39,912 nucleotides of DNA, taken from assembly GCA_903930515.1 (NCBI GenBank), contig CAIYYW010000148.1, positions 1 to 39,912 of the forward strand, written 5' to 3'. This DNA is from an uncultured delta proteobacterium (GTDB lineage: Bacteria > RBG-13-61-14 > DRUE01). Of this stretch, positions 13,437 to 39,858 are shown piece after piece (the first letter of the stretch is position 1; each line of letters begins with the position of its first letter). The notes beneath the pieces are model-generated. The model ran no database searches. It was not told where the DNA came from and was given only the letters and a program-made list of their open reading frames with translations. A program made the translations under genes and the position numbers.

Positions 13437-13508
13437 ACCATTAAGGATAAATTTTTACTTCGGCCCGCTCGTCCGCGGGAAAGCCCCGCCCCCGGGTCGG
13501 GTCTAGGA

Positions 13509-13536
13509 TTGACAAGGCAGTCCGTCCCGCTAGAAT
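13509..13536 (+). promoter_or_regulatory. Sigma70-like promoter TTGACA-N16-TAGAAT
   Basis: Consensus -35 and 5/6 -10 upstream of the 13619 ORF. Confidence 0.7.
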
Positions 13537-13618
13537 AAAAATCGGACCGAGATTATCTGCAGGAAACCAGGGGCGATACCAACAGGGCTGAAACCGGGTT
13601 CGTCATTTAGAGGATAAG

Positions 13619-15274: not shown

Positions 15275-15383
15275 GCCTGCGATCTCCGATAACCATCGCC
15301 ATGCGTTGAGATCTATTTCTGTAATAGGAGATGGGAACTTATCAATCGCGAACGATCCTGATCAAGCGAAAACCGGGAAAATT

Positions 15384-15412
15384 TTGCGAGGCCGCCATAA
15401 TTAGATTATACT
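15384..15412 (+). promoter_or_regulatory. Sigma70-like promoter TTGCGA-N17-TATACT
   Basis: Predicted TSS about 15419, 2 nt before ATG 15421. Confidence 0.5.
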
Positions 15413-15420
15413 GTTTTATA

Positions 15421-16836: not shown

Positions 16837-16847
16837 AATGAGCCTGG

Positions 16848-18241
16848 TTGGGAAAATTTTTCATGAATGAGCCAAGTCCGCCCGGGGTGGAAGGGAAATT
16901 ATCTCAGCCGGCGCTCTTGTTTATTATCATTTTGGCCGGCCTGATCCTGAAGTTGCTCCTGCTTCACGATTTCAATTCCCTCCCTTTGATCGGGGACGAA
17001 TATAAATACTGGGAAAAATCGATGGACACTTTTTACGGATATTTTTCCCGCCTGAACTTCCAGGGCCGCTCTATCCGGTTTTCCTGGCCCTCAACCGCAT
17101 TCTCTTTAAAGGTTCGGCGATGCTGCTGGTCCGGGGGGAGCAGATTCTTTTGCAGAGCCTGGAAGTGTATCTGATCTATCTGATCGCGCTTCGCTTCTTT
17201 TCCCGACGGCAGGCGCTCGCCGCCGGGGTCATCGCCGCCTTTTATCCGGAACTGGTTTCATACGGATATTTAATCTTTTCCGAAATATTGTTCCTGGCTT
17301 TTTTCCTCGGGTCCGCGCTTTTTTATTTCCGCTCCCTGAAAAAGCCGGGGTATCAATCGCTGAGATGGCTGATCCCGGCCGGGATCCTGAGCGGGCTGGC
17401 CTGCCTGACCCGCTCGGTGAACTTATTGTTTTTACCCCTCCTTCTCCTTCACCTGCTCTGGTTCCGGAAAGACGGTTTGAAAGACCGGATGGCGCTGGCG
17501 CTGATCTTTTTGCTCGCGATCTTCGCGCCCATTTCCATCCAGACCGCCAAGAACTACCGGCTGGCGGCCTGCCCGCTTCTGATTGACACCTGCGCCGGGT
17601 TGAATTTTTACAAGTCGCACAATCAAGAGGCGCCCCCGCATTACGACTTCAACGAGTATCACCGGCCGGAAAAATTCAGCCGGGAAAGGTGCGCGGGGAA
17701 CGAGGTCTGCGGGAGGATCCGATGCGAGTTCGGGAACGCCCGGGCGTTCATTTTCGCGCATCCCGGTCTGACCCTGCGCCGGATGGGGGTCAAGGTGATT
17801 GACCTTTACACCCCCAACCTGTTCATCTACAAGAATATCTTCCGCGAAAGCTCCTACCTCCTGATCACGCCGGAGCCTCCGGGCGAAACTGAAAAATTGA
17901 GCCGCTACCGCGGGCTCTGGTTCCGGATTCTCGGCTCGGGAGCATATCTGGCCCTGATGCTTCTGGCCCTGCTCGGGATCTCCGCGAGCAAGGATCGGGA
18001 GCTGAAATCCTTCACCGTCCTGCTGATCCTGTATCACACCGCGATCTGCTCCCTGTTCTTCTCGGTCAGCAGATACCGGATGCCCTTTATCCCCTTCCTG
18101 ATTATTTACGCCGGGGCGTTCCTGGCAATGAGCAAAGAAGATTTACGGGACCTTGCCAAACGGCAATGGGCCCTCGGGTTGGGCTTATGGCTTTTGCTTT
18201 TTATTTTGACCTTCCCCCGATTGCTCCTGATCCTGAAATGA
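16848..18241 (+). pseudogene. ArnT/PMT-like GT-C membrane glycosyltransferase, split by an apparent single-base frameshift near 17055-17075
   Basis: ORF 16848..17174 gives IGDEYKYWEKSMDTFYGYFSRLNFQGR; the alternate frame continues PLYPVFLALNRILFKGSAMLLVRGEQILLQSLEVYLIYLIA into ORF 17120..18241. Confidence 0.8.
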
Positions 18242-18243
18242 AA

Positions 18244-18269
18244 GAGGCGGGGGTTCGGCTCCCCGCCTC
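18244..18269 (+). terminator. GC-rich 9-bp hairpin between convergent genes
   Basis: GAGGCGGGG (18244-18252) / CCCCGCCTC (18261-18269) just after the stop at 18241. Confidence 0.55.
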
Positions 18270-18393
18270 CCCGGTCCTGAAAAGATGCCGGATTATTCTT
18301 ATTTGCGCGGTCCGGAAGCCGCTTGATTCACACAGCACCCAGGCCTGGAAAAGCTCTTCGTCGGTCCTTGAATCTTGTTCTTCCAATTCCCTG

Positions 18394-19597
18394 CTAGTTA
18401 ATACGCTCGGGGGAAGGGTTTATTTGATGGGGCAGGAGGAATATCAGCAGGATTGCGGACAGCAACACCAGGGCCGCGCCATAGGAAAAGACCGGCCCGG
18501 CCCCGTATTTTTTCCAGACCAGGCCGGCGATCACGCTGCTGGGGAGCATCAGAGCTCCGGTGATCGCATAGTAGATGCCGTAGGCGCTGGCGCGCTTTTC
18601 GCTCGGGATCAGCTCCCCGATCAAGGCTCGCTGAATACCCTCCCGGGTCGCGTCCACAATGCCGAAGCCGGCGAACAGGGGCCAGAGCCAGACCAGTTCC
18701 AGGTTCCGGGCGAATCCGAGATAGACCAGGCCGCACGAAACAAACGAAAACAATAAGACCTTTTTCCGGCCGATTTTGTCCGAGATGACCCCGGCCGGAA
18801 TGGAAACGAGCGCGCAGCTCAAATTATAAACCAGGTAAACCAAGGTGGTGTGCGACAGGCTCATCCCCAGTTCCTGGGCCCGCTGGATCAGGAAGATATT
18901 GGAAAAATTGCCCAGCACGAACACCGAGGATACGATCAGGTAGTAATGATAGTTCCGGTTGAATCCCCGGAAATTGAGTTGGAATTTTTGCCCGGGAGTC
19001 TTTTCCCGCGGCGCGACTTCGCGCACCAGGACGGCGAGCAGGATCACCCCGATCGCGGCCGGGACGATGGACCAGAGGAAAATGCTTTTGAAATTGAGCC
19101 CGAGGAAAAGCAGTCCGAAAGCGATCAGGGGTCCGATGGCGGCGCCAAAGGTGTCCATCGCCCGGTGGAACCCGAACCATTTCCCCAATTCCGCGGGCGC
19201 GGAGCTGTCCGCCACGATCGCGTCCCTGGGAGCGGTCCGGATCCCCTTTCCGGTCCGGTCGAAAAACCTTAATCCCAGCACCATCGGCCATCCCGCGCTC
19301 ATCCCGATCAGGGGCTTGGCAATCGCGCTCAGGGAATAGCCGAGCCCCCACCAGGACCTTCCGCTTCCGGAGCCGGTCCGAAACATATCCGAAAAATCCC
19401 TTGAGCACGCTGGCGGTGGATTCCGCCACCCCTTCGATCAGACCGAGCACGGCCGGAGAGCCGCCCAAACTCTTGACCAGTTGCGGCATCAGCGGATAGA
19501 GCATCTCGCTGGAGATGTCCGTGAACAGGCTCACAAACCCGAGCGAAACGATGTTCCGCCGAAAAGTTTTCTTCGGCTCGGACCTGGCTTCGCTCAT
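18394..19597 (-). pseudogene. MFS transporter, split by a homopolymer frameshift at 19345-19349
   Basis: ORF 18824..19597 gives FTDISSEMLYPLMPQLV...GYVSDRLRKRKVLVG; ORF 18394..19386 continues LGYSLSAIAKPLIGMS...RTGKGIRTAPRDAI. Removing one base from the C5 tract restores one frame. Confidence 0.85.
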
Positions 19598-24150: not shown

Positions 24151-24543
24151 ATGATCAGGGAGACCCGGAAAAAGATATTGGTTCTGGATTCGGAACCGTT
24201 TATGCGGGAGCTGCTCCGGATCAAGCTGGAGGCCGGCTGCGGGGAGGTGGTTTTCGCCGAGGACGAGAAGGAGGCGAAGCGGGTTCTGCTGGAGCAGGAG
24301 ATTGCCCTGGTGATTTTGGAGATTTTGCATCCGCGGCTGGACGCCTACCGCCTGGTCCAATGGTTCAAGAACCATCCGGGCCTGGACGCGGTGCGGGTCC
24401 TGATCTTGACCTTCAAGAAGAAGGATCCGGAAACTTTTTTCCTTTACAATGTCTGGATTGAGGGCTACTTTGAAAAACCTTTTTTGCCGGAGTTGTTTTC
24501 AGCCAGGGTCAAGGAAATCTTGAACTGCGGGGTTGGCGGCTGA
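24151..24543 (+). CDS. Receiver-like (CheY-fold) protein with Glu at the phospho-acceptor position
   Basis: KKILVLDSEPFMRELLRIKLE...ALVILEILHPRLDAYRLVQWFK...GYFEKPF. Confidence 0.82.
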   Translation: MIRETRKKILVLDSEPFMRELLRIKLEAGCGEVVFAEDEKEAKRVLLEQEIALVILEILHPRLDAYRLVQWFKNHPGLDAVRVLILTFKKKDPETFFLYNVWIEGYFEKPFLPELFSARVKEILNCGVGG

Positions 24544-25610
24544 TGGTCAAGATCGCTCAATTTAAAGACCGGGAAGATTTGGTGGGCCGGATTGAGAGCG
24601 AGAGCCTGCTGGAGGTGATTGACCATATCGTCAAACGCAAGTCGCCGATGTATTTGTGGATCCGGTTCGGGGGCGAGGAGGGGAACTTCTATTTCCGGGA
24701 GGGCAAGCTGGTTTACGCGGGTTCGCGCAGCCTGCGCGGGAAGGAGGCCGCCTATCATCCGCTCGCGTTCCGCACCGGGATTTTCCGGATCGTGCGCGGG
24801 AGGGAGCCGGAGACCGAGAATGTGGATATTGACTGGCAGACTTTCAAGAAGAATTTTTTGGCGGAGCTTCAGAAGCTGGTTTTGAATTTCCTCCCGGACC
24901 TGGAGGGCAAATTTATCATCAAGATCGTGGATTTTAAATTGCGGGACCTGTTTTATCACTTTGAGTCAGGGTCTCGTCTGCAAAGGGAAATCCTGATCCA
25001 GCTTTTCCAGGCCGGGGCCGAGCATGGTTTCAAGAGCCTGGTCCGGGGTTTGGAGGATAAGGTAATTGAGTTTCGGGAAGGGTTTTTCTCCGCGGTTTAC
25101 TATATCCCGGAGTTGAGGTATTTCATCGGGGTGTCGGGCGAGAAGCAGGAGCAGGAGCAGATTGATGGGTGGATGCTTCAGCAATTTATTCCCCGGGCGC
25201 GCGAGTCGGTGAGCGTGGCCTTGCGGAGATCGGACCGGCTTTCGGTTCGCGCCGGGGTGCTGGCGGTGATCCCGGACCGGCTGCTGGGGGAGCAGGCGCG
25301 CTCGGCCCTGAGTTCGGCCGGTTTCAAATCCTGGATTTGCCGGGATGGTTTTGAGGGGCTGGTGCGCGCGGAAGACTACCGGCCGGACCTGATCGTATTA
25401 TCTTATGACCTTGACCGGATTTCCAGCGCCGAGGTTTACGCCCGGCTCAAGCGGAAAGAAGAGAGCCAGATGATCCCGGTGATTTGCCTGGTGCCGGAAC
25501 TGCATCGGCCCGAGCTGGAAAAAGCGGCCTGCGGGGATATTTATTATGAATTGCCCTTTTCCGGCAAGAAGCTGGTCAAGATGGTTGAGAATCTTTTGGA
25601 GTTAAAATAA
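24543..25610 (+). CDS. DUF4388/PatA-like N-terminal region plus degenerate C-terminal receiver domain
   Basis: N-terminal SLLEVIDHIVKRKSPMYLWIRFGGEEGNFYFREGKLVYAG; C-terminal PDLIVLSYDLDRISSAEVYARLK. Confidence 0.72.
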   Translation: MVKIAQFKDREDLVGRIESESLLEVIDHIVKRKSPMYLWIRFGGEEGNFYFREGKLVYAGSRSLRGKEAAYHPLAFRTGIFRIVRGREPETENVDIDWQTFKKNFLAELQKLVLNFLPDLEGKFIIKIVDFKLRDLFYHFESGSRLQREILIQLFQAGAEHGFKSLVRGLEDKVIEFREGFFSAVYYIPELRYFIGVSGEKQEQEQIDGWMLQQFIPRARESVSVALRRSDRLSVRAGVLAVIPDRLLGEQARSALSSAGFKSWICRDGFEGLVRAEDYRPDLIVLSYDLDRISSAEVYARLKRKEESQMIPVICLVPELHRPELEKAACGDIYYELPFSGKKLVKMVENLLELK

Positions 25611-25640
25611 AATGCCGGAACCGGGAACGAGGAGGATCAG

Positions 25641-26153
25641 ATGAGAAAAACTTTTGCCTGGATCATAGTGATCGGCGGAACGGCCTTGGCTTTTGCCTGC
25701 GCCCGGCCGCGGGAGGAAAAAGCGGAAGCCAAAACCGTTCCCAAGGCGGAATATAAGACGGTGAAGCCGGATGAATTTCCGATCCCGGCGAAGCTGGCGG
25801 AAGCCCTTCCCGGCCTGGTCAATGACAAGATCCGGATCTGGAAGGAGATTTCTCCCAGCATCAACCTGGTGGTTTACGCCAAGGGTTATAATTTGAAAAA
25901 GGCGATGGAGGAATCGGCGCGGGCATTCCTGGCGCTTTCGGGAAACCCGGAATTCCGGAACCGGGTGGATTTCTGGATCATCCAGATCCAGCCCGAGCAA
26001 GGCCCGGAGGTGTTGGTCTGGGGGGCGCGCCCGTCGGAGGTGGACCAATATCAAAAGACTTTGGACCTCAAAAGCTTTTTCCGCGATTCCGAATATGTCC
26101 TGATCAATGACCAGATCATCAGCAAGGGAGACGACCGCTTGAAATCTTTCTAA
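25641..26153 (+). CDS. Putative lipoprotein of unknown function
   Basis: MRKTFAWIIVIGGTALAFACARP signal/lipobox; SD gaggagg. Confidence 0.65.
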   Translation: MRKTFAWIIVIGGTALAFACARPREEKAEAKTVPKAEYKTVKPDEFPIPAKLAEALPGLVNDKIRIWKEISPSINLVVYAKGYNLKKAMEESARAFLALSGNPEFRNRVDFWIIQIQPEQGPEVLVWGARPSEVDQYQKTLDLKSFFRDSEYVLINDQIISKGDDRLKSF

Positions 26154-26177
26154 CCGATCGGAACCAACCGGAGCTAA

Positions 26178-27863
26178 ATGATGGCAGCCGAACAGAAAAC
26201 GATGATCCAGGAAATCGCGGAATGGGCCGCGGGTCTCAAGTATCAGCAGATACCCGCGAGGGTGATTGAGAAGGCCAAGCTCCAGATTTTAAGCGTGCTG
26301 GCCGCGATCCATTCCTCGGCCCACACCCGGGCGGGAAAAATTTTGATTGAAACCGCGCAGGATTTTTACGGGCCGGGCAAAAGCCCCCTGATCCCGACCG
26401 GGGGAAGAGCTTCTCTTTCCGCGTCTATCTTCGCCGCGGCCGGCTTGAGCGTGGCGCAGGATTATGACGATTACCTGGCCTTCGGACATACCGGTCATAG
26501 CGCGGTTTCGGTCCCGCTCCTGCTGGGGAATTCGCTCGCCTCCGACCCGAAGGAAATCCTGACCGCGCAAATCATCAGCAACGAAATTTCCGGACGGATC
26601 GGCGGGAGCGTGCTGCTGGGGCCGCACAACGGCCAGACCTGGTCGCATATTCACCTGATCGGATCGGCCGCCTCCGCCTCCCGGCTGATGGGCTTGAGCG
26701 CGGAAAAAACCGCGATGGCGATGGCGATCAGTTTCTATCAGCCCACTTATGTTCTGCCCCCCGGTTTTATGGGACCGGATTCCAAATTGCTCACCGGCGC
26801 GGTCCCGACCGTGCTCGGCCTGCAGGCGGCGTTCCTGGCCGAGAAAGGCTTCACCGGCGCGCTGGATCTTTTGGAAAACCATCAGGGCTTCCTGAACCAT
26901 TTCAGCTACTACCCGCTGCCGATGATGCTTACGGGCTTCGGCCGGGCCTGGGTCACGGACACGCTCGCGTACAAGATATATCCCGGCTGCGCCTACATTG
27001 ACACCACGGTGGACGCGCTGTTTGAAATCATCCGCAAGTTCAAGGCCGAGACCGGCCGGGAGCTGAGCGTGGACGAGGTTACGGAGATTTTGGTGGAAGG
27101 CACGGCGCTGACGGTTGAGATGGACCACCTGAGCAAGGTTGGGATCAGCTTTGACCCGCTCAATCCGGTGAGCATCAATTTTTCCATCCCGGGAAATGTG
27201 GCGCTGGTTTTGCTCAAGCGCAAGCTGACCGGCTCGGAGTTGCGGGAGGATAATTTGGCCGCGGACGCGGACCGGATCAAGCAGATCGGGGGCCGGGTGA
27301 AACTCGCGCATAGCCTGGAATTGACCGTGGAGATGTTGCAGAAGATGAATCCGGCCTTGAAGGTGGCGGAGCTGTTCCGGACTTTGAGCCTGCGCAAGCT
27401 GGCCCAGGCCCGGCGCCGGATCACCAAGCAATACGGCCGGAGCATGGGCCTGGAGTTGGAGCCGACCTGGAATTACCTGACCCAAAATCTCGGCAAGGTC
27501 GCGGGCGTCGCGGCGCAGGGCTTGCGGGGCCGGATCGGCAGGGTTATCGCCGGGGAGCAGCCGGGCGGGAAAAGATGGAGCCTGGCGGACGCGGATTTGG
27601 AAAATTTCACCATGCCCTTCAGCGCGCGGGTTACGGTCAGGCTCAAGGACGGAAAGACCTTCCAGCACCGGCAGGATATTCCCCGCGGAGGCCCGGGGGA
27701 GCCGATTGAGGAGCGGAGGAAACTGGTTTTAAATAAATTTATCATTGAGGCCGGGCCGGCCCTGGGAGAAAGAAAAGCGCAGGAAATCGCGGAAAAGATT
27801 TTAAAGCTGGAAAAGCTGTCGTCTATTAAAGAGTTGGTAGAGGAGTTGGGTGCGAAGAAATAA
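26178..27863 (+). CDS. MmgE/PrpD family protein
   Basis: AKLQILSVLAAIHSSAHTRAG, AQDYDDYLAFGHTGHSAVSVP, KIYPGCAYIDTTVDAL. Confidence 0.88.
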   Translation: MMAAEQKTMIQEIAEWAAGLKYQQIPARVIEKAKLQILSVLAAIHSSAHTRAGKILIETAQDFYGPGKSPLIPTGGRASLSASIFAAAGLSVAQDYDDYLAFGHTGHSAVSVPLLLGNSLASDPKEILTAQIISNEISGRIGGSVLLGPHNGQTWSHIHLIGSAASASRLMGLSAEKTAMAMAISFYQPTYVLPPGFMGPDSKLLTGAVPTVLGLQAAFLAEKGFTGALDLLENHQGFLNHFSYYPLPMMLTGFGRAWVTDTLAYKIYPGCAYIDTTVDALFEIIRKFKAETGRELSVDEVTEILVEGTALTVEMDHLSKVGISFDPLNPVSINFSIPGNVALVLLKRKLTGSELREDNLAADADRIKQIGGRVKLAHSLELTVEMLQKMNPALKVAELFRTLSLRKLAQARRRITKQYGRSMGLELEPTWNYLTQNLGKVAGVAAQGLRGRIGRVIAGEQPGGKRWSLADADLENFTMPFSARVTVRLKDGKTFQHRQDIPRGGPGEPIEERRKLVLNKFIIEAGPALGERKAQEIAEKILKLEKLSSIKELVEELGAKK

Positions 27864-28611
27864 GGGCAAGCTGAGGCTGGCGCTGCTGGCGGTGATCGCC
27901 TTGGGGATCGCCTTCGGGAACAGTTCCGGCCAGGCCTTGAAAAGTCCGGCCCAGCCTTATCTGGAAGCCGGGGACAGGTTGTATGAACAGGGGAAGCTGA
28001 AGGAATCGCTTTCCGCCTATGAGCAGGCGCTGGCGATTGATCCGAAGAATCAATATGCGTCCTTCCAGATCATCCAGGTGAATGTCAGGCTGAGTTCGGG
28101 GGAAAATGCCGCGCCCGGCGCGCTGCCCGCGCGCGATTACAGCAAGGTCAGCCGCGAGCTCGGCCCCTATTACAAGGACCCCCTGAACAAGATCGCGCTC
28201 CGTCCCCCGGCCGGCTGGCTGATTGACAACAGCGATCCTCGTTTCCAGGTCAAATTCATTGACCCCCATTACGAGGCGTTCGTTTTCGTCAAGGTGATCC
28301 CGACCCCCAAGCCGGTTTCAATCGGCTACGAACTGCAGACCCGGGTGGAAAACCTGGTAAAGAATCTCGCGGCCCAGATCCCCAACGCGAGCCTGAAATA
28401 TTTGAATTTTGAAAGACTGGTGGACGAGACCGTTCTCCGGGTGGAGGTGCATTACCAGGCCGGCCCGAACCTCATTATCATCAACACCCGTCTGATCACG
28501 GACCTGCAACGGGTGGTGATCGTGACCTGGGTCTGCCCGGAGCGGGTGTTCATTTATTTCCGGCCTTTGCTGGAAAGCTCGGTGGCGACCGTCACGCTCA
28601 CCCCTCAATAA
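27850..28611 (+). CDS. Exported TPR-containing protein of unknown function
   Basis: GTG start overlapping the previous gene by 14 nt; YLEAGDRLYEQGKLKESLSAYEQALAIDPKN. Confidence 0.72.
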   Translation: MRRNKGKLRLALLAVIALGIAFGNSSGQALKSPAQPYLEAGDRLYEQGKLKESLSAYEQALAIDPKNQYASFQIIQVNVRLSSGENAAPGALPARDYSKVSRELGPYYKDPLNKIALRPPAGWLIDNSDPRFQVKFIDPHYEAFVFVKVIPTPKPVSIGYELQTRVENLVKNLAAQIPNASLKYLNFERLVDETVLRVEVHYQAGPNLIIINTRLITDLQRVVIVTWVCPERVFIYFRPLLESSVATVTLTPQ

Positions 28612-28614
28612 ATA

Positions 28615-30024
28615 ATGCCCGGAATCCTATTCCTCCAAAGCGACTGGCTGGAACATCTCGGCCCGCTCTATCTTTCGGCATTCTTAAAATCTCAAGGCCT
28701 TGACGCCGGCCTGGTCATCTCCCGCTCTCCCAAAAAAATCATGGCGGAAATCAACCGCGTCCAACCCGACCTGCTCGGAATCTCTCTCGCCAGCGCCGGC
28801 AAAAGGTCCGCGCTGGAACTGCTGGAACGGATCAAGGCCCTGAGCCAAACCCCGGTCGTGCTGGGCGGACCCCACCCGACTTTTTTACCGGAAACGCTCG
28901 CTCACCCCGCGGTTGATTTCATTATCCGGGGGGAGGCCGAGGAAGGTTTATTTCAATTGATCTCGGCGCTGAAGAATAATTCCGGGCTGGAAAATGTGCC
29001 GGGCCTGGGCTGGAAGAAGGAGGGCGAACTAAAATATAATCCTCCGGCGAAACTCCTGGAAAACCTGGACCGGCTCCCCTTCCCGGACCGCTCGCTTTAT
29101 TTCCGCTACGGTTTTTTCCGGCGGCTCTCAATGAGAAGGGTGATCGCCTGCCGGGGCTGCCCGTTCCAGTGCCGGTATTGCTTCAACGCTCCGCTCCGGG
29201 AATATTATAAGGGTTGCGGCAAATATGTTCGGCATCGAAGCCCGGAAAACATCATCGCCGAGCTTCGGGAACTTAAAGCCGTCAGCCGGACCATTAATTT
29301 CGTGGACGACAGCTTCGGCCTGGACCAGGGACTCGCGATGGAATTGTTCGCGCAATATGAAACCGAAATCCGACTGCCCTTCATCATCAACCTGCGGCCG
29401 GAGCAGGTGAACGAAAAATTGGCCCGGGCCCTGGCCAAGGCCGGATGCCATTGCGCCCAAGTCGGGATTGAATCCGGGAACGACCAAATCCGCGGGCAAA
29501 TCCTGGGAAGGAAAATCAGCGCGGAACAAATCCGGGCCGCGGTCAAATATCTCAAGCAACAGGGGATTAAGGTCTTGAGCTACAATATGCTCGGAATCCC
29601 GGGAGAAAATCTGGAGCAGGGATTCCAAACCATCCGCCTCAACCGCGAACTCAAGATTGATTTCCCGCGCTTCAGCATTTTCCAGCCGTATCCCGGCACC
29701 GAGCTGGGGGAAGAGATCATCAGGAAAGGACTGGCGCGGCGGGAGGAACTATGGGAAAAATTTTCCCCCAGCTACTTCCGGTCCAGCCCGCTTTCATCTG
29801 CCGAGATCAGCCGTCTATCCAACCTGCAAAAACTTTTCCGGCCCGCAATCAAATTCCCGATCCTGGAGCCGCTCCTGAAAAAATTGGTGTCTCTCCCCCG
29901 GAACCCGGCTTTTGATTTGGTCTTCCTCGCAAGCATCGCCGCGCAATACCGGAAAGCCGCCAACCTCTCGGTTTCGGAAACGATGGAATACGGCCTCCGC
30001 AACCTCGCGCTTTATTTTCAATAG
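28615..30024 (+). CDS. Radical SAM protein, B12-binding type (copy 1)
   Basis: ACRGCPFQCRYCFNAP (CxxxCxxC), QPDLLGISLASA, VVLGGPHPTFLPE, FIIRGEAEEGL. Confidence 0.92.
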   Translation: MPGILFLQSDWLEHLGPLYLSAFLKSQGLDAGLVISRSPKKIMAEINRVQPDLLGISLASAGKRSALELLERIKALSQTPVVLGGPHPTFLPETLAHPAVDFIIRGEAEEGLFQLISALKNNSGLENVPGLGWKKEGELKYNPPAKLLENLDRLPFPDRSLYFRYGFFRRLSMRRVIACRGCPFQCRYCFNAPLREYYKGCGKYVRHRSPENIIAELRELKAVSRTINFVDDSFGLDQGLAMELFAQYETEIRLPFIINLRPEQVNEKLARALAKAGCHCAQVGIESGNDQIRGQILGRKISAEQIRAAVKYLKQQGIKVLSYNMLGIPGENLEQGFQTIRLNRELKIDFPRFSIFQPYPGTELGEEIIRKGLARREELWEKFSPSYFRSSPLSSAEISRLSNLQKLFRPAIKFPILEPLLKKLVSLPRNPAFDLVFLASIAAQYRKAANLSVSETMEYGLRNLALYFQ

Positions 30025-30078
30025 TCAAGCGGATACCCGATCCCTGATGCTGAAACCGGACACCCCGGTCCCGCGTAA

Positions 30079-30106
30079 TTGAAGCGTCCCGCCGGCGTGA
30101 TATATT
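30079..30106 (+). promoter_or_regulatory. Sigma70-like promoter TTGAAG-N16-TATATT
   Basis: Predicted TSS at ATG 30112/30115; only obvious promoter of the downstream overlapping gene run. Confidence 0.55.
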
Positions 30107-30111
30107 ATTAA

Positions 30112-31518
30112 ATGATGAAAACCGCGCTGGTTTTTCCCAGGCTTTGGAGCCAGGTGCATGGGATGTGGCCCCCGCTCGGGCTGTGCAGCCTGGCCACCGT
30201 GTTGCGGGACGCCGGGGAATCGGTGAAAATATTTGACTCCAGCTTTGACCAAAGCCTGGACCGGGTGAAGGCGGAGTTGAAAAAATTCCAGCCCGACCTG
30301 ATCGGGATTTATACCCTCACCGATTTCTTCCGCGCCGCCCAAGAGCTTTCGGAATTCGGCCGGAGCCTGGGCGCCAAGGTGGTTTCCGGCGCGGCCCATC
30401 CGACCCTGCTTCCGGAGCAGACCCTGAAAGAAATTCAAGGGTTGGATTTCATCCTGCGCGGAGAGGGCGAGCAAGCGATCCTTCTTCTTTTGGCCGCCAT
30501 CCGGGGCGAGCGGGATTTTTCGCAGGTGCCCGGGCTGGGGTACCGGCGGGGCGGAGAAATTATTTTAAACCCGCTTCCGGAGGAGCCGCTGGATTTGGAT
30601 CAGCTCCCGATCCCGGACCGGGATTTGTTTGAGCATTTTCCGAAATATTTGCGCAACCGCGCGATCAATCTCCACATCAGCCGGGGCTGTCCGTTTAATT
30701 GCTCCTTCTGCCAGCCAACCCTTAAATTGATGTTCGGGAAAAAACCCCGGTACCGGTCCCCGCAACTGGTGGCGGAGGAGTTGAAATTGCTCAATCAAAA
30801 ATACCAGATCCGGGAATTTTTCTTCCACGATGACATTTTCACCGTGAACCATCAGTGGCTGGCCGAGTTGGTGGAAAAGATCAACCAGGCCGGCTTGCGC
30901 AAGGGGTTCCGATATGTGGTGAACAGCCGGGTGGATACCTTTGACGAAAAGGTCGCGCGTCTGCTCCGGGAGATGGGCGTGTATTATGTTTTGTTCGGCC
31001 TGGAGAGCGGCTCGCAGGAAGTTTTGGATCGGATGAAAAAAGGGGCCACGGTGGAGCAGTCATATCAGGCCTTTGCGCTCTGCCGTAAATTCGGGTTCCG
31101 CACCCACGCTTACATAATCCTGGCCGGCCCGGGCGAGACCGAATCCACCCTGGGGATGACCGAGAAGATGATTTCGGAACTGAAGCCGGACACCGTCCAC
31201 ATCTCCATCTGCACCCCTCTTCCCGGAACCAATTTGGCCAAAGACGCCCAAGAGCAAGGCCTGATCGGAGTGCAGGATTATTCGGATATGGATTATTACC
31301 TCAAGACCACCAGCACCGGCAGACTGCCGCTCGCGCTCCCGGGCTTAAGCTATCAGGAAGTTTTATCCGCGCGTGAGCGGATTTTAAAAAAGAGAAAATG
31401 GTTCATGTTCCAGGACAACCTGGCGAACCTGGGCAAAGATTTTATCCATGACCCGTCTCCGGGGAAATTTATCTTCCGGCTCAGCTTTTACCGGAAGATG
31501 CAACATTATTTCGGATGA
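30112..31518 (+). CDS. Radical SAM protein, B12-binding type (copy 2)
   Basis: SRGCPFNCSFCQPT, PPLGLCSLATVLRDAG, AAHPTLLPEQTL, FILRGEGEQAI. Confidence 0.93.
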   Translation: MMKTALVFPRLWSQVHGMWPPLGLCSLATVLRDAGESVKIFDSSFDQSLDRVKAELKKFQPDLIGIYTLTDFFRAAQELSEFGRSLGAKVVSGAAHPTLLPEQTLKEIQGLDFILRGEGEQAILLLLAAIRGERDFSQVPGLGYRRGGEIILNPLPEEPLDLDQLPIPDRDLFEHFPKYLRNRAINLHISRGCPFNCSFCQPTLKLMFGKKPRYRSPQLVAEELKLLNQKYQIREFFFHDDIFTVNHQWLAELVEKINQAGLRKGFRYVVNSRVDTFDEKVARLLREMGVYYVLFGLESGSQEVLDRMKKGATVEQSYQAFALCRKFGFRTHAYIILAGPGETESTLGMTEKMISELKPDTVHISICTPLPGTNLAKDAQEQGLIGVQDYSDMDYYLKTTSTGRLPLALPGLSYQEVLSARERILKKRKWFMFQDNLANLGKDFIHDPSPGKFIFRLSFYRKMQHYFG

Positions 31519-31529
31519 GGTGTTAGGTT

Positions 31530-33389
31530 TTGGCAATCAACCCAGGTCCCTCCCGGTCCAAATTATTCGGCGGATGCCTCGCCTTGCTCATCCTGTTCCA
31601 GGTTTTAAGCGCGGTCCTCTGCTTCAAGACCCCGGCTGAATTGTTCCGGACCGATCCGATCATCAACATTGACTGGAGCTCGCAATACTACTGGAGCTTC
31701 GCGGCCCGTAAATTTTTCGCGCAGTCGCATAGGCTCTGGGGATTTGACCCGTATTATATGGCCGGATACCCGCTGGACTTCATCTTCAACTCCTCGCTCC
31801 CGGTCCAGGTCGCAAACATCCTCTTCCGCCCACTCCCGCTCGGGCTGGTGATCAAATGGTTTTTCCTCCTATCCTTCCTGGCCGTGCCGTTCATCTTCTA
31901 TTTCTCGCTCAGGAACTTCGGCCTGGACAAAGGGGTTTCTCTCGCCGGGGCCGCGCTCGGGGTTTCCTATTTCTGGCTCGGGGAGGACGCCCTGTTCGGG
32001 AACTGGGGTATGATCTCCGGAGCGCTCCTGCTGAATTTTTTCCTGCTTGCCGCCTCCTCCTTATACCGCTACCTTGGCTCCGGGGATCGCGGGAATTATT
32101 TACTATTTATAATCTATCTCACATCCGCGGTCTTGATCCACAAGACCTTCCTGGTCCTGGCCGGGATTCCCTGCCTGATCCTGACGCTGATATTTTTCCG
32201 CCGGATCAGCAGAAAAGTCTGGCTCGGCCTGGTCGGCGCGGTTATTTTCGCCTACGCGGCCAACAGCTTCTGGCTGATCCCGTTCCTGCATTTTTTGCCC
32301 AATAAGATTGAAGACCCCAACACCACTTTTTTCCAGAACACCGTCGCCTGGCGATTCCTGGCCGACCTGATCCCCTTTCCTCTTCCGGGCGCGGCCCTGG
32401 GCCGGATCGCGATTTTATTTCCCGCGCTCTATGGCGTGATCCGGATGCGCAAAGACCGGGAGCATCAAGACCTTTTCCGGTTCACGCTCATTTGCTACGC
32501 GGTGTTTTTCGTCCTGGTTTACTTCGGGTCGTTCTCCGCGCTCCTGCGCAATCTCCAGCCCTACCGATACCTGACCGCTCTTTTCTTTTTGCTCACTCCC
32601 GCGGCCGGGTACGGGCTTGGGAAAGTTGCCCAAAAATTTTCCGGCCGGGCTTTTTCCCGGGCGCTGCCGGTGATGTTGGTGATTTTGCTTTTCGGGCTGC
32701 AATTTGTCCCGAGCTACCGGCTTTTTTATGTAGTGGCTCCCCTGACCAGCAAATGGCCGGCAAATGTTTTAGAACTCCAGGACTGGCTGGTAAAAAATAC
32801 CGACCTGAGCGGCAGAATAATGATGGAAGACATCAACAAATGGGAAGGCAAACTCGCGCCTTATGGACCGGGCCGGCTTCCGGGCCTGGCCCCGGCTCTG
32901 ATCCATCGGCAATTAATCGGCGGCCCTCTCCCCAACGCCTTTATCAAACATCATTACGCCAGTTTCCACGACGGGCTGTTCCTGAACAAGCCGATCCAGG
33001 AATACACCGACCAGGAGCTTCAGGAAAAAATGAGCCTCTATAATATTCACTGGGCCGTGGCCTGGGATGCCCGGTCCAAAATTCGGTTGGAGAAATTTTA
33101 CGCCGGCCGAAAGGCCGCAACCTTCGGCGGGGTGGAGGTATTTGAAATCCGGAACCGGCCCGACTGGTTCCTGGTCGGGAGCGGGGATCTTCAAGCGGAT
33201 TATGATAGAATTGAGTTGAGGCGTCTGAAACCGGTGAATAAGATGGTGGTGATAAAAATGCACTGGCTGGACGGGTTCCAATCCGAGCCGGCTTGCGAAC
33301 TTTTCCGATTTCCGGTTCCGGGCGACCCGATCGGGTTCATCGGCTTGAAGAATCCCCGGTCGGAATTGGTGTTGAAATATGGACGGTAA
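31530..33389 (+). CDS. Large polytopic membrane protein (YfhO / 6-PTPS-related GT-C-like)
   Basis: WGFDPYYMAGYPLDFIFNSSLPVQVANILFRPLP and about ten hydrophobic helices. Confidence 0.75.
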   Translation: MAINPGPSRSKLFGGCLALLILFQVLSAVLCFKTPAELFRTDPIINIDWSSQYYWSFAARKFFAQSHRLWGFDPYYMAGYPLDFIFNSSLPVQVANILFRPLPLGLVIKWFFLLSFLAVPFIFYFSLRNFGLDKGVSLAGAALGVSYFWLGEDALFGNWGMISGALLLNFFLLAASSLYRYLGSGDRGNYLLFIIYLTSAVLIHKTFLVLAGIPCLILTLIFFRRISRKVWLGLVGAVIFAYAANSFWLIPFLHFLPNKIEDPNTTFFQNTVAWRFLADLIPFPLPGAALGRIAILFPALYGVIRMRKDREHQDLFRFTLICYAVFFVLVYFGSFSALLRNLQPYRYLTALFFLLTPAAGYGLGKVAQKFSGRAFSRALPVMLVILLFGLQFVPSYRLFYVVAPLTSKWPANVLELQDWLVKNTDLSGRIMMEDINKWEGKLAPYGPGRLPGLAPALIHRQLIGGPLPNAFIKHHYASFHDGLFLNKPIQEYTDQELQEKMSLYNIHWAVAWDARSKIRLEKFYAGRKAATFGGVEVFEIRNRPDWFLVGSGDLQADYDRIELRRLKPVNKMVVIKMHWLDGFQSEPACELFRFPVPGDPIGFIGLKNPRSELVLKYGR

Positions 33390-34092
33390 GTCGTTGAAGA
33401 TAATCGTCTCGGCCGTGATCCTGGCCAAGGACGAGCAAGGAACCATTTCCGGGATCGTGGAAAAGGCAAAGGGATACGCGGACGAGGTGCTGGTAGTGGA
33501 CGGCCGCTCTACGGACCGCACCCGCGAGTTGGCGGAGAAAGCCGGCGCGAGGGTGATCCCGGACCACGGACTGGGAAAGGGAGACGGGTACCGGGTCGGC
33601 CTGGCCGAGGCCAAAGGAGAAGTTGCGGTGTTCCTGGACGCGGACGGCTCTCACGATCCGGCCGAGATTCCCAAGCTGAGCGGTCCGATTCTCAAGGGGG
33701 ATTTTGATTTGGTGATCGGGTCGCGATGGAGAGGCGGTTCGGACGACATTCATCCCAATTTCAATCACCTGATCCGGGACCTGGGCGGGAACCTCCTTTC
33801 CATCATCATCAGCAGATGGTTCCAGACCGAAGTCACCGACTGCCTGCACGGGTTCCGGGCGATCCGGCGGCAGGTCGGGCTTGGACTCGGACTTTGCGCG
33901 AATGATTTTGATGTTGAGCACGAAATGGTGATCAAAACCTTGAAGAGCGGATATAGGGTCGGGGAAGCGCCGGTGCACGAATACGCGCGCCAGGCTGGGA
34001 AAAGCAAGCTGCCCACCTACGGGAAAGCGCACCTTTTCTGGTGGCGCCTGTTCCGGGAGTTGGTTCGGAGGAAACCGTGCGGGTGTTCCTGA
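33379..34092 (+). CDS. Glycosyltransferase family 2 (dolichol-phosphate mannosyltransferase-like)
   Basis: VSAVILAKDEQGTI, VVDGRSTDRT, VFLDADGSHDP, DLVIGSRW. Confidence 0.92.
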   Translation: MDGKSLKIIVSAVILAKDEQGTISGIVEKAKGYADEVLVVDGRSTDRTRELAEKAGARVIPDHGLGKGDGYRVGLAEAKGEVAVFLDADGSHDPAEIPKLSGPILKGDFDLVIGSRWRGGSDDIHPNFNHLIRDLGGNLLSIIISRWFQTEVTDCLHGFRAIRRQVGLGLGLCANDFDVEHEMVIKTLKSGYRVGEAPVHEYARQAGKSKLPTYGKAHLFWWRLFRELVRRKPCGCS

Positions 34093-35495
34093 TCAATCCA
34101 CCGGCCGCGGACGGGGTAGAGATGGTCCGGGAGGGGAGATGTATGCAGAGGCGCTCGGCCTGGGGAGCGGTCTGGCCCCCGATCAGTTTGGCCACCATCG
34201 CCTCCCTTTTGGAGATTAACGGGTATGAATGCCGGATCCGGGACTGCATTGTGGAAAAAATTTGCCTGACCGATCTTTTGAAAGAGGCGCGCGAATTTCA
34301 TCCCGAGTTGATTATCCTCAACACCGCGACCGGGTCGATCAAGGCTGATCTGGACGCGGCGAACCAACTCCATAAGACGGTTTCGGCCGCGGCGATTTTC
34401 GTGATCGGGATTCATCCGACCGCGCTTCCGGAGGACACCCTGGAAAATTGTCGGGGATTGGACGGGGTGATCCGTGGGGAGCCGGAGGGGGTGGCGCTGG
34501 GCCTGGCCAATCTGATCCGGTACCATAAGGATTGGAGAACCGCTCCGGGCGTGAGTTACAAGGAAGGACTGTTTTGCTACCACAACCCCTGCCCCGCGGA
34601 ACTGGATTTGGACCAGGTGCCCTTCCCCGCCTGGCATTTGATCAAGCCCAATCTTTACCGGATGCCCATCGTCGGAAAAGCGTTCCTGATGGTCGGCGTC
34701 AGCCGGGGATGTCCGTTCAGCTGTCAATTCTGCGCGGACGCAACCTATTACGGCAAAAAACTCCGGACCAAAAGTCCGGCCAAGATTGTGCGCGAGCTGG
34801 ACTGGGTCGGGACCAAGTTCGGGATTGAAGATTTCCTGTTCTGGGCCGAGTCGTCCACCCTGAACCCGCAATGGACAATGTCGGTTTGCGACGCGATCAT
34901 CTCTTCCGGTCTCAAGGTCCGGTTCGTGGTCAACAGCCGTCCGGACCAGGTCAACCTGGAATTATTGAAGAAGCTTAAGCAGGCCGGCTGCTGGATGATC
35001 GGGTACGGGCTGGAGAGCGGTTCCGACCGGATGCTCAAGCTGATGGGGAAAAATATTCGGCTGGACGACAACCGCAACGCGGTCAAGTGGGCCAAAGAAG
35101 CGGGCCTGGCGGTCACCGGCCATTTCGTGCTCGGCTTTCCCGGCGAGACCAAAGAGAGCGCGACGGAGACCATCAGGTTCTCCCTGGATCAGCCGATTGA
35201 CTTCGCCCAGTTCTATTGCGCGGTGCCCTTTCCGGGGTCCAAACTATACGAGCTTGCCAAAGCCAACAACTGGATCATCAACGCGGACTGGAGCAAGTTT
35301 GAGCAAAACTTCTGCGTCATCACCACCCCCGAACTGACCGCGGCGGAGCTGGGCAAAATCAGGATGGAAGCATATCGGAAATTTTATTACTCATTTAAGA
35401 AGATGCTGAATTTCTGGAGACTGGCCTGGAGGATCGGCAGTCTCAGGAACCTGGGGGCTTTATCGCGCGAATTTCAGGGATGGATCGCGGAATGA
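34077..35495 (+). CDS. Radical SAM protein, B12-binding type (copy 3); GTG 34077 preferred
   Basis: VRVFLINPPAADG start at GTG; SRGCPFSCQFCADATYYGKK; IGIHPTALPEDTL; VIRGEPEGVAL. Confidence 0.92.
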   Translation: MRVFLINPPAADGVEMVREGRCMQRRSAWGAVWPPISLATIASLLEINGYECRIRDCIVEKICLTDLLKEAREFHPELIILNTATGSIKADLDAANQLHKTVSAAAIFVIGIHPTALPEDTLENCRGLDGVIRGEPEGVALGLANLIRYHKDWRTAPGVSYKEGLFCYHNPCPAELDLDQVPFPAWHLIKPNLYRMPIVGKAFLMVGVSRGCPFSCQFCADATYYGKKLRTKSPAKIVRELDWVGTKFGIEDFLFWAESSTLNPQWTMSVCDAIISSGLKVRFVVNSRPDQVNLELLKKLKQAGCWMIGYGLESGSDRMLKLMGKNIRLDDNRNAVKWAKEAGLAVTGHFVLGFPGETKESATETIRFSLDQPIDFAQFYCAVPFPGSKLYELAKANNWIINADWSKFEQNFCVITTPELTAAELGKIRMEAYRKFYYSFKKMLNFWRLAWRIGSLRNLGALSREFQGWIAE

Positions 35496-36661
35496 AAATA
35501 TCATCAATGAAAGGGATTGACCGCTGGCTGGGCATCCCGGCCTGCTGGATCTTAAGGCAATGGGGAAGGCTCAGATCCGATCAGGAGCCGGAGCGGATTG
35601 ATCGCATCCTGGTGATCAAGTTCTGGGGAATGGGGAGTATGATCCTGGCCCTGCCGGTTTTTCAAGCCCTGAGAAAGGCGTATCCCAAGGCCGAACTCGG
35701 GTTCGCCACCCTGGCCCGCAACCGCGAGTTCCTGGAGGTGCTGAAAATTTCCGACCGTCAAATATATCTGGAGCTTCCGGCCCATCCCCTGAAGATTTTT
35801 ATTTCCATCCTCTCCTTTTTCCAAAGGCTGAGAAAATTCCGGCCCCAGGCCGTGATTGACCTGGAATACCTCACCCGCTTCTCCGCCATCGCCACCTTCC
35901 TCTCCCAGGCCGAAAAGCGGGTCGGGTTCCATTCCTGGGATGTCTGGCGCGGAGAACTCCATAATGTGCCCGTGCCCTTCAACCCCTACTGGCACGCGAG
36001 CGAAAATTTTCTCAACCTAGCCCGCAAGCTGACCGGCCGGGATTTCCCGCTCAAGTTTGAGTTCACCCTTCCGGAAAACCCGGCCGCGAAAAAGAGGCTG
36101 GAAGAAAAGCTGGGATCGGAAAAAATTTCTCCCGTTGACCGATTGATCCTGATCAATCCCAACGCGTCCACCATCGCATTGGAGCGGCGCTGGCCCCCGG
36201 AGCATTTTTCCCGGTTGATGGAAATGCTTTTGCAACAAAATCTTGGCAAGCTGATCCTGATCGGGGCGCCGGACGAGCAAGGGTTCGGGGAGGGATTGAG
36301 AAGGAGCCTGAAAACTCCGGACCTGGTTTTGAACCTGGCCGGAAAGATCAGCCTGGAGGAATTGATTGAATTGATCCGCAAATGCGAGCTGATGATCACC
36401 AACGATTCCGGGCCGCTCCATATCGCGGAAGTGCTTCACGCCAAGACCGTAAGCTTTTTCGGGCCTGAAACCCCGGTCCTGTTCGGACCGCTCGGAGAAG
36501 GGCACAAGGTTTTATATCACGCCATTGACTGCTCCCCCTGCATCACCGTTTACAACGCCAAGACCGTACGCTGCATCCGCAAGGTCCCGGAATGCGTGGC
36601 CGGGATCAGCCCGGAAGAGGCGTTTGCCGCGGTCAGGGAAGCGCTCGGAAAGCAAAAATGA
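35492..36661 (+). CDS. Glycosyltransferase family 9 (heptosyltransferase-like); ATG 35492 with ATGA overlap preferred
   Basis: VIKFWGMGSMILALPVFQALRKAYP, LILINPNAS, LMITNDSGPLHIAEVLHAKTVSFFGP. Confidence 0.92.
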   Translation: MKISSMKGIDRWLGIPACWILRQWGRLRSDQEPERIDRILVIKFWGMGSMILALPVFQALRKAYPKAELGFATLARNREFLEVLKISDRQIYLELPAHPLKIFISILSFFQRLRKFRPQAVIDLEYLTRFSAIATFLSQAEKRVGFHSWDVWRGELHNVPVPFNPYWHASENFLNLARKLTGRDFPLKFEFTLPENPAAKKRLEEKLGSEKISPVDRLILINPNASTIALERRWPPEHFSRLMEMLLQQNLGKLILIGAPDEQGFGEGLRRSLKTPDLVLNLAGKISLEELIELIRKCELMITNDSGPLHIAEVLHAKTVSFFGPETPVLFGPLGEGHKVLYHAIDCSPCITVYNAKTVRCIRKVPECVAGISPEEAFAAVREALGKQK

Positions 36662-38022
36662 AAATCGTCCTGCTCAACCCGCCATCCCGCGTCCGGCTGA
36701 TCCGCGACTACTATTGCAGTAAGACCAGCAAGAGCACCTATCTGTTCGCGCCCGCTGACCTGCTGATGCAGAGCGGATTGCTTTCCAAAACCAACGAGCT
36801 GATCGTGATGGACGCGGTCGCGGAAAAGCTTTCCCCGAAGCAATGCCTGGATCGGCTCCATTCCTTCCAGCCCGGCCTGGTGCTGGGATTGATCTCCGCG
36901 GTGGAATACAACGCCGACTTGGAATTTTATCGCCGGCTCAAGGACGCGCCCGGGTCCCGCAAAATTTTTTTGAGCGGAGAGCCGGTCCTGGAAAACCCGG
37001 AGCAATGGCTGAGCCAAAACCCCTTCATTGACGGAATCCTGCTCCGGTTTGTCAGCCGGGGAATGGAACAATATGTGCGCGGAGAAAAAAAACCGGAGGG
37101 GCTTGCTTTCCGGGACGGCGGGGAAATAAAATCCTTCCCGATCAGCCGCGAGCCGGAATATTCAGTCGGACGGGCCCGGCAGGAACTGTTCCAGGATCCG
37201 GCTTATTTTTTTTCCTTCGCAAAGCATCGCCGCTTCGCGACTTTCCTCACTGACTTCGGGTGCCCTTATCAGTGCCGGTTCTGCGTGATGGCATCGCTCG
37301 GATACCGCAGGCGGAACGCCGACGAGGTTGAAGAAGAACTGGACTATCTTTCCTGGCTCGGGATCAAGGAGCTTTTTCTCGCAGACCAGAGTTTTGGAGC
37401 GGCGCCTGAGCACAGCCGCAAGATGATGAGCCTGTTCAAAAAATACCGCAATTCCTTTACCGCGTTCGTCCGTCCGGACCAGGGCAAGGATGATTTTTGG
37501 AAGGCCTTGAAAGAGTCCGGCTGTCATACCGCGATCGTGGGATTGGAAAGCGGCTCCGAAGAAATCCTCCAGGCATATTCCAAGGGATATCTCCGCGAGG
37601 AAATCAGCGAGGGAATCCAAAACGCGAAAAGGGCCGGGCTTAGGGTGGTGGCCACCGTGATCGTTGGCCTGCCCGAGGACACTGAAGCGAGCATCCAGTC
37701 CACAATGAAATTCCTCCGCGAGCTGGACCCGGATTTTGTCTCTTACAATTTGGCGGTCCCGCGCAGTCTCACCGACTTGCGCAAGACCGTGATCGCGGAA
37801 GGGTTGGCCGTGAACTTGGAGATGGACCAGGCCGGAAGTTTCGGCTCGCTCAAGACCCGCCATTTGACTGAATCCCAACTGGTCTCGCTCAAGCAAAAAG
37901 CCGTGCGCGATTTCTATCTCAGGCCCGGATATTTATTCTCCCGACTTGCCAAAGCCCAAAGCGCCTTTGAACTCTACGCCCTCCTGCGCGAGGGCCTTTC
38001 CGTGCTGAGCAAGAATATTTGA
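36658..38022 (+). CDS. Radical SAM protein, B12-binding type (copy 4); ATG 36658 with ATGA overlap preferred
   Basis: MKIVLLNPPSRVRLIRDYY; DFGCPYQCRFCVMASLGYRRR; TAIVGLESGSEEILQAYSKG. Confidence 0.9.
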   Translation: MKIVLLNPPSRVRLIRDYYCSKTSKSTYLFAPADLLMQSGLLSKTNELIVMDAVAEKLSPKQCLDRLHSFQPGLVLGLISAVEYNADLEFYRRLKDAPGSRKIFLSGEPVLENPEQWLSQNPFIDGILLRFVSRGMEQYVRGEKKPEGLAFRDGGEIKSFPISREPEYSVGRARQELFQDPAYFFSFAKHRRFATFLTDFGCPYQCRFCVMASLGYRRRNADEVEEELDYLSWLGIKELFLADQSFGAAPEHSRKMMSLFKKYRNSFTAFVRPDQGKDDFWKALKESGCHTAIVGLESGSEEILQAYSKGYLREEISEGIQNAKRAGLRVVATVIVGLPEDTEASIQSTMKFLRELDPDFVSYNLAVPRSLTDLRKTVIAEGLAVNLEMDQAGSFGSLKTRHLTESQLVSLKQKAVRDFYLRPGYLFSRLAKAQSAFELYALLREGLSVLSKNI

Positions 38023-38074: not shown

Positions 38075-38109
38075 AACAGCCCCTTCCGAGATGATCGGAA
38101 GGGGCTGTT
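38075..38109 (-). terminator. Rho-independent terminator of the RRM gene
   Basis: Perfect 15-bp stem AACAGCCCCTTCCGA / TCGGAAGGGGCTGTT with 5-nt loop; A7 at 38070-38076 gives the U-tract on the minus-strand transcript. Confidence 0.9.
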
Positions 38110-39062: not shown

Positions 39063-39797
39063 TCATTTGGTTCGGTTGTAAAGGGCATCGGGCAGGAACT
39101 TGAGCAGCCAGGCGAAAAGTCTCCAGCGTCTGGTGATATAGGCGTGCTTCTTTTTAGCTTTGATCGCGCTCATAATTTGCGCGGCGGCCTTGGGCGCGGG
39201 CTGGACCCAGAACAGGCCTTCCCCCTTGGCCATGGCCGTATCAACCAGACCCGGTTGGATATCGGTCACGATGATGGGCAGACCGAGGCGGGCGGCCTTC
39301 TGCCTTAGCCCCTGCAGGTAATTGGATTGGAACGCTTTGGAAGCGTTGTAGGCAGGCGCGTCCGCGCTTCCGCGGATGGCGGCAATGGATGAGATGGCCA
39401 CCAGATGCCCGGCCCGCTCTGAGATGAAGTGGTTCATCGCCAGAGTGGCGATCGCGGCAAACCCCTCCACATTGACCTTGATGGTTTCCCACTCGGGGTC
39501 CCATTCCAACTCCGGGTTCAAATGGCCGGCGCCGGCGCTGATCACCACCAGATCAACGCCGCCCAAGTCCCGAATCAGCCGGGCAAGTTCTTCCCGGGCC
39601 GCGTCCACCTTTGCGACATCAATGATTCTGACCAGCGAGCCGGGCACTTTCTTGGCGACCTCGTTTAACAGGTCAAGCCTTCGCGCGGCCAGGCCGACCC
39701 GATAGCCTTGGCGCCCAAGGATAATGGCCAACTCCCGGCCGATGCCGGAAGACGCGCCAACCACGATGGCCCTTTTCAAGTCTGGGTTCCCGTCCAC
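39063..39797 (-). CDS. Short-chain dehydrogenase/reductase; GTG 39797 preferred (ORF track start 39821)
   Basis: VVGASSGIGRELA, ISAGAGH, AISSIAAIRGSADAPAYNASKAF (YxxxK); SD ggagg before the GTG. Confidence 0.92.
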   Translation of the reverse strand: MDGNPDLKRAIVVGASSGIGRELAIILGRQGYRVGLAARRLDLLNEVAKKVPGSLVRIIDVAKVDAAREELARLIRDLGGVDLVVISAGAGHLNPELEWDPEWETIKVNVEGFAAIATLAMNHFISERAGHLVAISSIAAIRGSADAPAYNASKAFQSNYLQGLRQKAARLGLPIIVTDIQPGLVDTAMAKGEGLFWVQPAPKAAAQIMSAIKAKKKHAYITRRWRLFAWLLKFLPDALYNRTK

Positions 39798-39858
39798 GCC
39801 AACCTCCCTCCAATGCCCCAACCCCGGGAAAATAACCTCAGTCCCTATTTTCCAATGC

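Follow-up and report, generated by a model that had tools for sequence, protein, structure and literature searches.

Which role is played by a row of genes in which radical S-adenosylmethionine (SAM) proteins alternate with glycosyltransferases? This question is raised by a 39,912-nucleotide (nt) stretch of DNA, hereafter referred to as the window, from an uncultured delta proteobacterium (NCBI GenBank assembly GCA_903930515.1, contig CAIYYW010000148.1). A first-pass annotation had described four distinct radical SAM proteins (rSAM1 to rSAM4), interleaved with glycosyltransferases of the GT2 and GT9 types and a polytopic membrane protein, as one locus at 28615-38022. All seven open reading frames (ORFs) are present at the stated coordinates, and Pfam analysis confirmed the families of all but the membrane protein. 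The core unit is the shorter row rSAM2-GT-C-GT2-rSAM3-GT9(-rSAM4) at 30112-38022, and it represents a real, conserved and uncharacterised operon. The proposal that this operon is translationally coupled and serves an envelope glycan or glycolipid, with the HpnJ-like rSAM3 editing a GT2-loaded sugar before its transfer by the GT-C enzyme, is given an even chance. The genes are as follows:

28615-30024, plus strand: rSAM1, Radical_SAM and B12-binding domains, motif CPFQCRYC
30112-31518, plus strand: rSAM2, first gene of the core operon, Radical_SAM and B12-binding domains, motif CPFNCSFC
31530-33389, plus strand: putative divergent GT-C-type membrane glycosyltransferase, 619 amino acids (aa), from a profile-profile match
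33379-34092, plus strand: GT2, AglJ/DPM1-like polyprenyl-phosphate sugar synthase, 237 aa, PF00535
34077-35495, plus strand: rSAM3, Radical_SAM and B12-binding domains, motif CPFSCQFC, N-terminal REGRC motif
35492-36661, plus strand: GT9, heptosyltransferase-like, 393 aa, PF01075, ATGA start
36658-38022, plus strand: rSAM4, Radical_SAM domain, motif CPYQCRFC, B12-binding domain undetected, ATGA start

Start codons were placed as in homologues, namely GTG at 34077 for rSAM3 (listed ORF 34041), ATG at 35492 for GT9 (listed 35480) and ATG at 36658 for rSAM4 (listed 36592). The nearly seamless junctions reported from 30112 onwards were recovered as overlaps of 11 nt between GT-C and GT2 (33379-33389), of 16 nt between GT2 and rSAM3, and of the ATGA type at rSAM3/GT9 and GT9/rSAM4; the first gap, between rSAM2 and GT-C, measures 11 nt (31519-31529) and not 12 nt. 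These overlaps are repeated in a congeneric genome at protein identities of 69-78%. The spacing between rSAM1 and rSAM2 is 87 nt. Rfam yielded zero matches in the whole window, so any cobalamin riboswitch would have to score below the gathering threshold.

Searches at family, order, class and phylum level gave two to three genomes, so that all within-phylum statistics are based on three genomes of 87-95% completeness, namely the window genome (G000), its congener G001 and a further genome, G002. In G001, GT-C, GT2, rSAM3, GT9 and rSAM4 are located together on one contig (C592) at 69-78% identity to the window, and rSAM2 lies at the edge of another (C634). In G002, contig C98 carries rSAM2-GT-C-GT2 up to its end, and contig C35 terminates in rSAM3-GT9. 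The rSAM2 orthologues share 77% (G001) and 60% (G002) identity with the window protein. For the core, the genes present and their order are consistent with conservation across the three genomes, as the neighbourhood check suggested earlier would require; rSAM1 is located apart from it, and rSAM4 was seen only within the genus, its best match in G002 reaching 27-29% identity. Ratios of non-synonymous to synonymous substitution rates (dN/dS) between window and congener are 0.10-0.27 for every gene compared, indicating purifying selection, with the lowest value, about 0.10, for rSAM4.

Beyond the phylum, rSAM3 belongs to a supported clade (SH-aLRT 98) made up of nine tree rows; these come from eight groups at phylum level, including two archaeal ones. 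Besides the window phylum, the groups are Zixibacteria, Omnitrophota, Nanoarchaeota, Altiarchaeota, Patescibacteria, Myxococcota and Armatimonadota; rSAM4 is without a clear sister in the tree. Relatives of rSAM3 examined for context share 36-44% identity, and every clade member fetched adjoins GT9, GT2 or PMT_2 GT-C genes. GT9 was found beside the relatives in Nanoarchaeota, Omnitrophota, Zixibacteria and Myxococcota, GT2 plus GT-C in Patescibacteria and Armatimonadota, and GT2, a carbamoyltransferase and GT-C in Altiarchaeota. The nanoarchaeotal locus also carries a Wzx-type flippase. Members of the clade have in common an N-terminal R-E-G-R-C motif (window 34077-34200), and rSAM4 has a similar R-D-Y-Y-C at this place. 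In one Zixibacteria contig, eight radical SAM genes stand in a row with a single GT9 gene (L007, 514-14052), and one Omnitrophota contig has four tandem paralogous B12-type radical SAM genes (L015, 150-5964). Among plasmids in PLSDB, only distant Lawsonia radical SAM proteins (28% identity) were found.

In all four window proteins, the Pfam domain Radical_SAM (PF04055, E-values 2e-19 to 4e-27) and a CxxxCxxC-type core were identified. Their best families are HpnJ, BchE and ApyD. Against HpnJ (TIGR03471, cut-off 577.6 bits), scores of 189 (rSAM3), 179 (rSAM2), 139 (rSAM4) and 109 bits (rSAM1) were obtained, and relatives of rSAM3 reached 236-275 bits. The fold predicted for rSAM3 by AlphaFold2 (predicted local distance difference test, pLDDT, 92.8) is most similar to that of AprD4 (template modelling score 0.79/0.84), followed by MgmA and then TsrM, OxsB, TokK and CysS.

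The glycosyltransferase partners were assigned as follows. GT2 matches Glycos_transf_2 (PF00535, E-value 4e-22); its best NCBIfam is AglJ (E-value 4e-34, under the cut-off) and its best Protein Data Bank (PDB) match dolichol-phosphate mannose synthase 5mlz. GT9 matches Glyco_transf_9 (PF01075, E-value 8e-31). The membrane protein had been called YfhO-like; it has no Pfam match, YfhO included, and no sequence match in the PDB. A profile built from it and two relatives matched a PMT_2-type GT-C profile (95%, E-value 3.4e-8, 250 columns), and reversal of either profile reduced this value to 0.6-1.2%; composition of membrane helices alone therefore does not account for the match. Single-sequence hhalign did not tell the protein from control membrane proteins; only the profile test did. 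Judged by its sequence profile, the protein is a divergent GT-C transferase and not a Pfam YfhO. No relative of it was detected in IMG/VR.

Furthermore, the setting within the three genomes is rich in such functions. The window genome encodes 25 long frames with the B12-binding domain (PF02310), so that B12-type radical SAM proteins are not rare in it, and 8 of its 26 GT2 genes lie within 3 kb of one, versus 0.88 expected (P = 1.5e-6). The corresponding counts are 7/25 and 6/23 in the other two genomes (expected 0.8-0.9 in each genome), all pairs being on the same strand. LpxC is present in all three genomes; the cells can therefore make lipid A. The earlier assignment to a surface glycan or glycolipid is well supported by the core order in three genomes, the glycosyltransferase neighbours in seven other phyla and LpxC. 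Per genome (3.6-4.7 Mb), 40-55 PMT_2 GT-C matches and 25-31 B12-type radical SAM frames were counted. Two further clusters are kept in all three genomes. One (L053, L054, L055) comprises GT-C, GT2, a B12-type radical SAM gene and genes which, from their sequences, we take to be GT4-like and epimerase-like; the other (L056 4850-15605, L084, L076) comprises one or two B12-type radical SAM genes, GT2, genes with CxxxCxxC motifs and an apparent polysaccharide ABC transporter ATPase.

From these data we infer the substrates, reactions and order of steps as follows. GT2 would load polyprenyl phosphate with a sugar. The HpnJ-like rSAM3 would then use a 5'-deoxyadenosyl radical to alter the carbon skeleton of this sugar, by ring contraction, rearrangement or C-methylation, acting either on its lipid-linked form or on the activated sugar. 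Further changes may be added by the B12-type rSAM2 and, in the window genus, by rSAM4. The GT-C enzyme would move the edited sugar onto an acceptor outside the membrane, and GT9 may work in the cytoplasm, placing a sugar on an inner-core or lipid acceptor. The hopene cyclase model TIGR01507 had no match in the three genomes, although this result has no strong positive control, as all 14 control genomes also stayed under the cut-off. The HpnJ-like protein, the GT2/GT-C pair, LpxC and the lack of a hopene cyclase match are most simply read together as radical editing of a sugar that is still lipid-linked, followed by its transfer.

Several results weigh against this reading. None of the radical SAM proteins scores above any NCBIfam cut-off, so homology does not reveal the reaction. 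The contiguity of the core in G001 and G002 is deduced from matching contig ends, since in each of them the core is divided between two contigs. Moreover, the rSAM3 gene of G001 falls into two overlapping frames (L004, 2546-3999), owing either to a frameshift or to an assembly fault, and the matches to GT-C and GT2 in G002 are piecewise. The AlphaFold2 model of the GT-C protein is poor (pLDDT 47.8) and too low in confidence for use of its fold. Finally, the operon contains no flippase gene, a finding confined to the operon since no genome-wide flippase search was made.

The strongest alternative is that rSAM2 and rSAM3 represent cobalamin-dependent C-methyltransferases which methylate the sugars of the glycan, much as gentamicin is methylated by GenK and GenD1, two sugar methylases of the same class (PMC5461906); this is possible, albeit on the unlikely side. 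MgmA is the second structural match of rSAM3. An N-terminal B12-binding domain (PF02310, E-values 1e-14 to 2e-17) was found in rSAM1 to rSAM3, and alignment revealed the loop motifs GxHPT and GExE in the same three proteins. Positions reading GExE or similar are common to the cobalamin binders MgmA, OxsB, TokK and TsrM and are lost in AprD4, which suggests cobalamin binding by rSAM1 to rSAM3. However, retained motifs are no proof of binding, HpnJ, the family with the highest score, carries out a rearrangement, and AprD4, the closest fold, is not known to use cobalamin. AprD4 has been contrasted with cobalamin-dependent dehydratases (PMC5461906), consistent with a cobalamin-free enzyme. The B12 type claimed earlier for all four proteins thus holds for rSAM1 to rSAM3; rSAM4 has no PF02310 match in the Pfam search, lacks both loop motifs and, by these features, is probably cobalamin-free and AprD4-like. 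The DxHxxG motif belongs to enzymes of the methionine-synthase and mutase type; its absence is uninformative because radical SAM methylases are not known to need it for cobalamin binding.

Modification of the lipid part (the polyprenyl carrier, an acyl chain of lipid A or some other membrane lipid) rather than of the sugar is improbable. The lipid-acting HpnR and a ladderane-associated family are among the relatives, with weak scores, but the context consists of glycosyltransferases throughout, the three genomes gave no hopene cyclase match, and the closest lipid-associated relative, HpnJ, works on a sugar headgroup. That all four radical SAM proteins form one pathway is very improbable: they are adjacent on the same strand in the window genome, and two rSAM1-like genes flank rSAM3-GT9 in the Zixibacteria contig, but rSAM1 is located away from rSAM2 in both relatives and its own neighbourhood is kept in the congener.

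This neighbourhood includes two genes upstream of rSAM1; the element bordering the operon downstream is given with them:

26178-27863, plus strand: MmgE/PrpD-family protein, conserved neighbour of rSAM1
27850-28611, plus strand: TPR protein, conserved neighbour of rSAM1
38075-38109, no strand assigned: stem-loop separating rSAM4 from a convergent RRM gene

In G001, contig C543 shows the order p24543-p25641-MmgE/PrpD-TPR-rSAM1, matching window positions 24543-30024, with an rSAM1 orthologue of 72% identity, apart from rSAM2 on C634. In G002, rSAM1 is located on C51 and rSAM2 on C98. Because of these separate locations, rSAM1 closes one unit and rSAM2 opens another; rSAM1 belongs with the upstream MmgE/PrpD-TPR unit and not with the glycan operon, and the single locus of four radical SAM genes is not supported. 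The gene upstream of rSAM2 on C634 is presumably alanine racemase-like, as read from its motifs. At the other end, the T run of the stem-loop follows the stem on the minus strand, i.e., on the RRM side. Elsewhere in the window, two genes of the sulfatase family and two PMT_2 GT-C genes occur in alternation, all on one strand (12057-18753), and type I phosphodiesterase genes are located at 756-2144 and 9817-11670.

If radical editing of the sugar is correct, radical chemistry would be a recurring tool for surface glycans as well as for hopanoids, cofactors and antibiotics, and bacterial and archaeal genomes could be searched for such sugars by way of the rSAM3-GT9/GT-C pairing. This would also explain what some of the unusually many B12-type radical SAM and PMT_2 GT-C proteins in this poorly sampled phylum are used for. 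More tentatively, and rather doubtfully at present, the rSAM3 clade may constitute a new bacterial and archaeal enzyme class that edits the carbon skeleton of polyprenyl-phosphate-linked sugars and lets GT-C enzymes place cyclitols, ring-contracted or branched sugars in surface glycans.

Among known systems, HpnJ is the nearest named family of rSAM3 and its relatives. In the hopanoid pathway, the glycosyltransferase HpnI adds N-acetylglucosamine to the lipid, HpnK deacetylates it and HpnJ acts last to give the cyclitol ether (PMC12583986). The B12-type radical SAM architecture and a glycosyltransferase that first places a sugar on a lipid are in common; rSAM3 differs in scoring far under the HpnJ cut-off and in its partners, a polyprenyl-phosphate GT2, GT-C and GT9. 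AprD4, the radical SAM 1,2-diol dehydratase of apramycin, likewise acts on a sugar, is the top structural match of rSAM3 and shares the loss of loop motifs with rSAM4. However, scores against its family (NF033070, cut-off 500 bits) are 116 (rSAM3), 96 (rSAM2), 70 (rSAM1) and 55 bits (rSAM4), rSAM3 keeps the cobalamin-loop motifs, and no conserved reductase partner stands beside the operon. A candidate AprD3-like partner, the short-chain dehydrogenase/reductase gene at 39063-39821 (minus strand, 1 kb downstream), was rejected as it is not kept beside rSAM4 in the congener. MgmA, the glutamine C-methyltransferase of methyl-coenzyme M reductase, resembles rSAM3 in structure and is the top PDB hit by sequence for both rSAM1 and rSAM2, but has a protein substrate without glycan context.

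In transmembrane glycosylation, GT2 charges polyprenyl phosphate and GT-C transfers the sugar outside (PMC8035078). The operon shares GT2 and GT-C with such CsbB/GtcA/YfhO-type systems and differs by the absence of a flippase gene and a YfhO Pfam match and by the added radical SAM genes. The name of TIGR04295 (B12_rSAM_oligo) suggests a B12-type radical SAM protein in an oligosaccharide setting, although the window proteins reach just 73-76 bits, far below its 400-bit cut-off; a generic link between these proteins and oligosaccharides is therefore not wholly new. In the open-licence literature, no paper linking B12-type radical SAM proteins with polyprenyl-linked GT-C systems was found. The part of interest is the coupling of a B12-type radical SAM protein to polyprenyl-phosphate GT2, GT-C and GT9 genes over bacteria and archaea.

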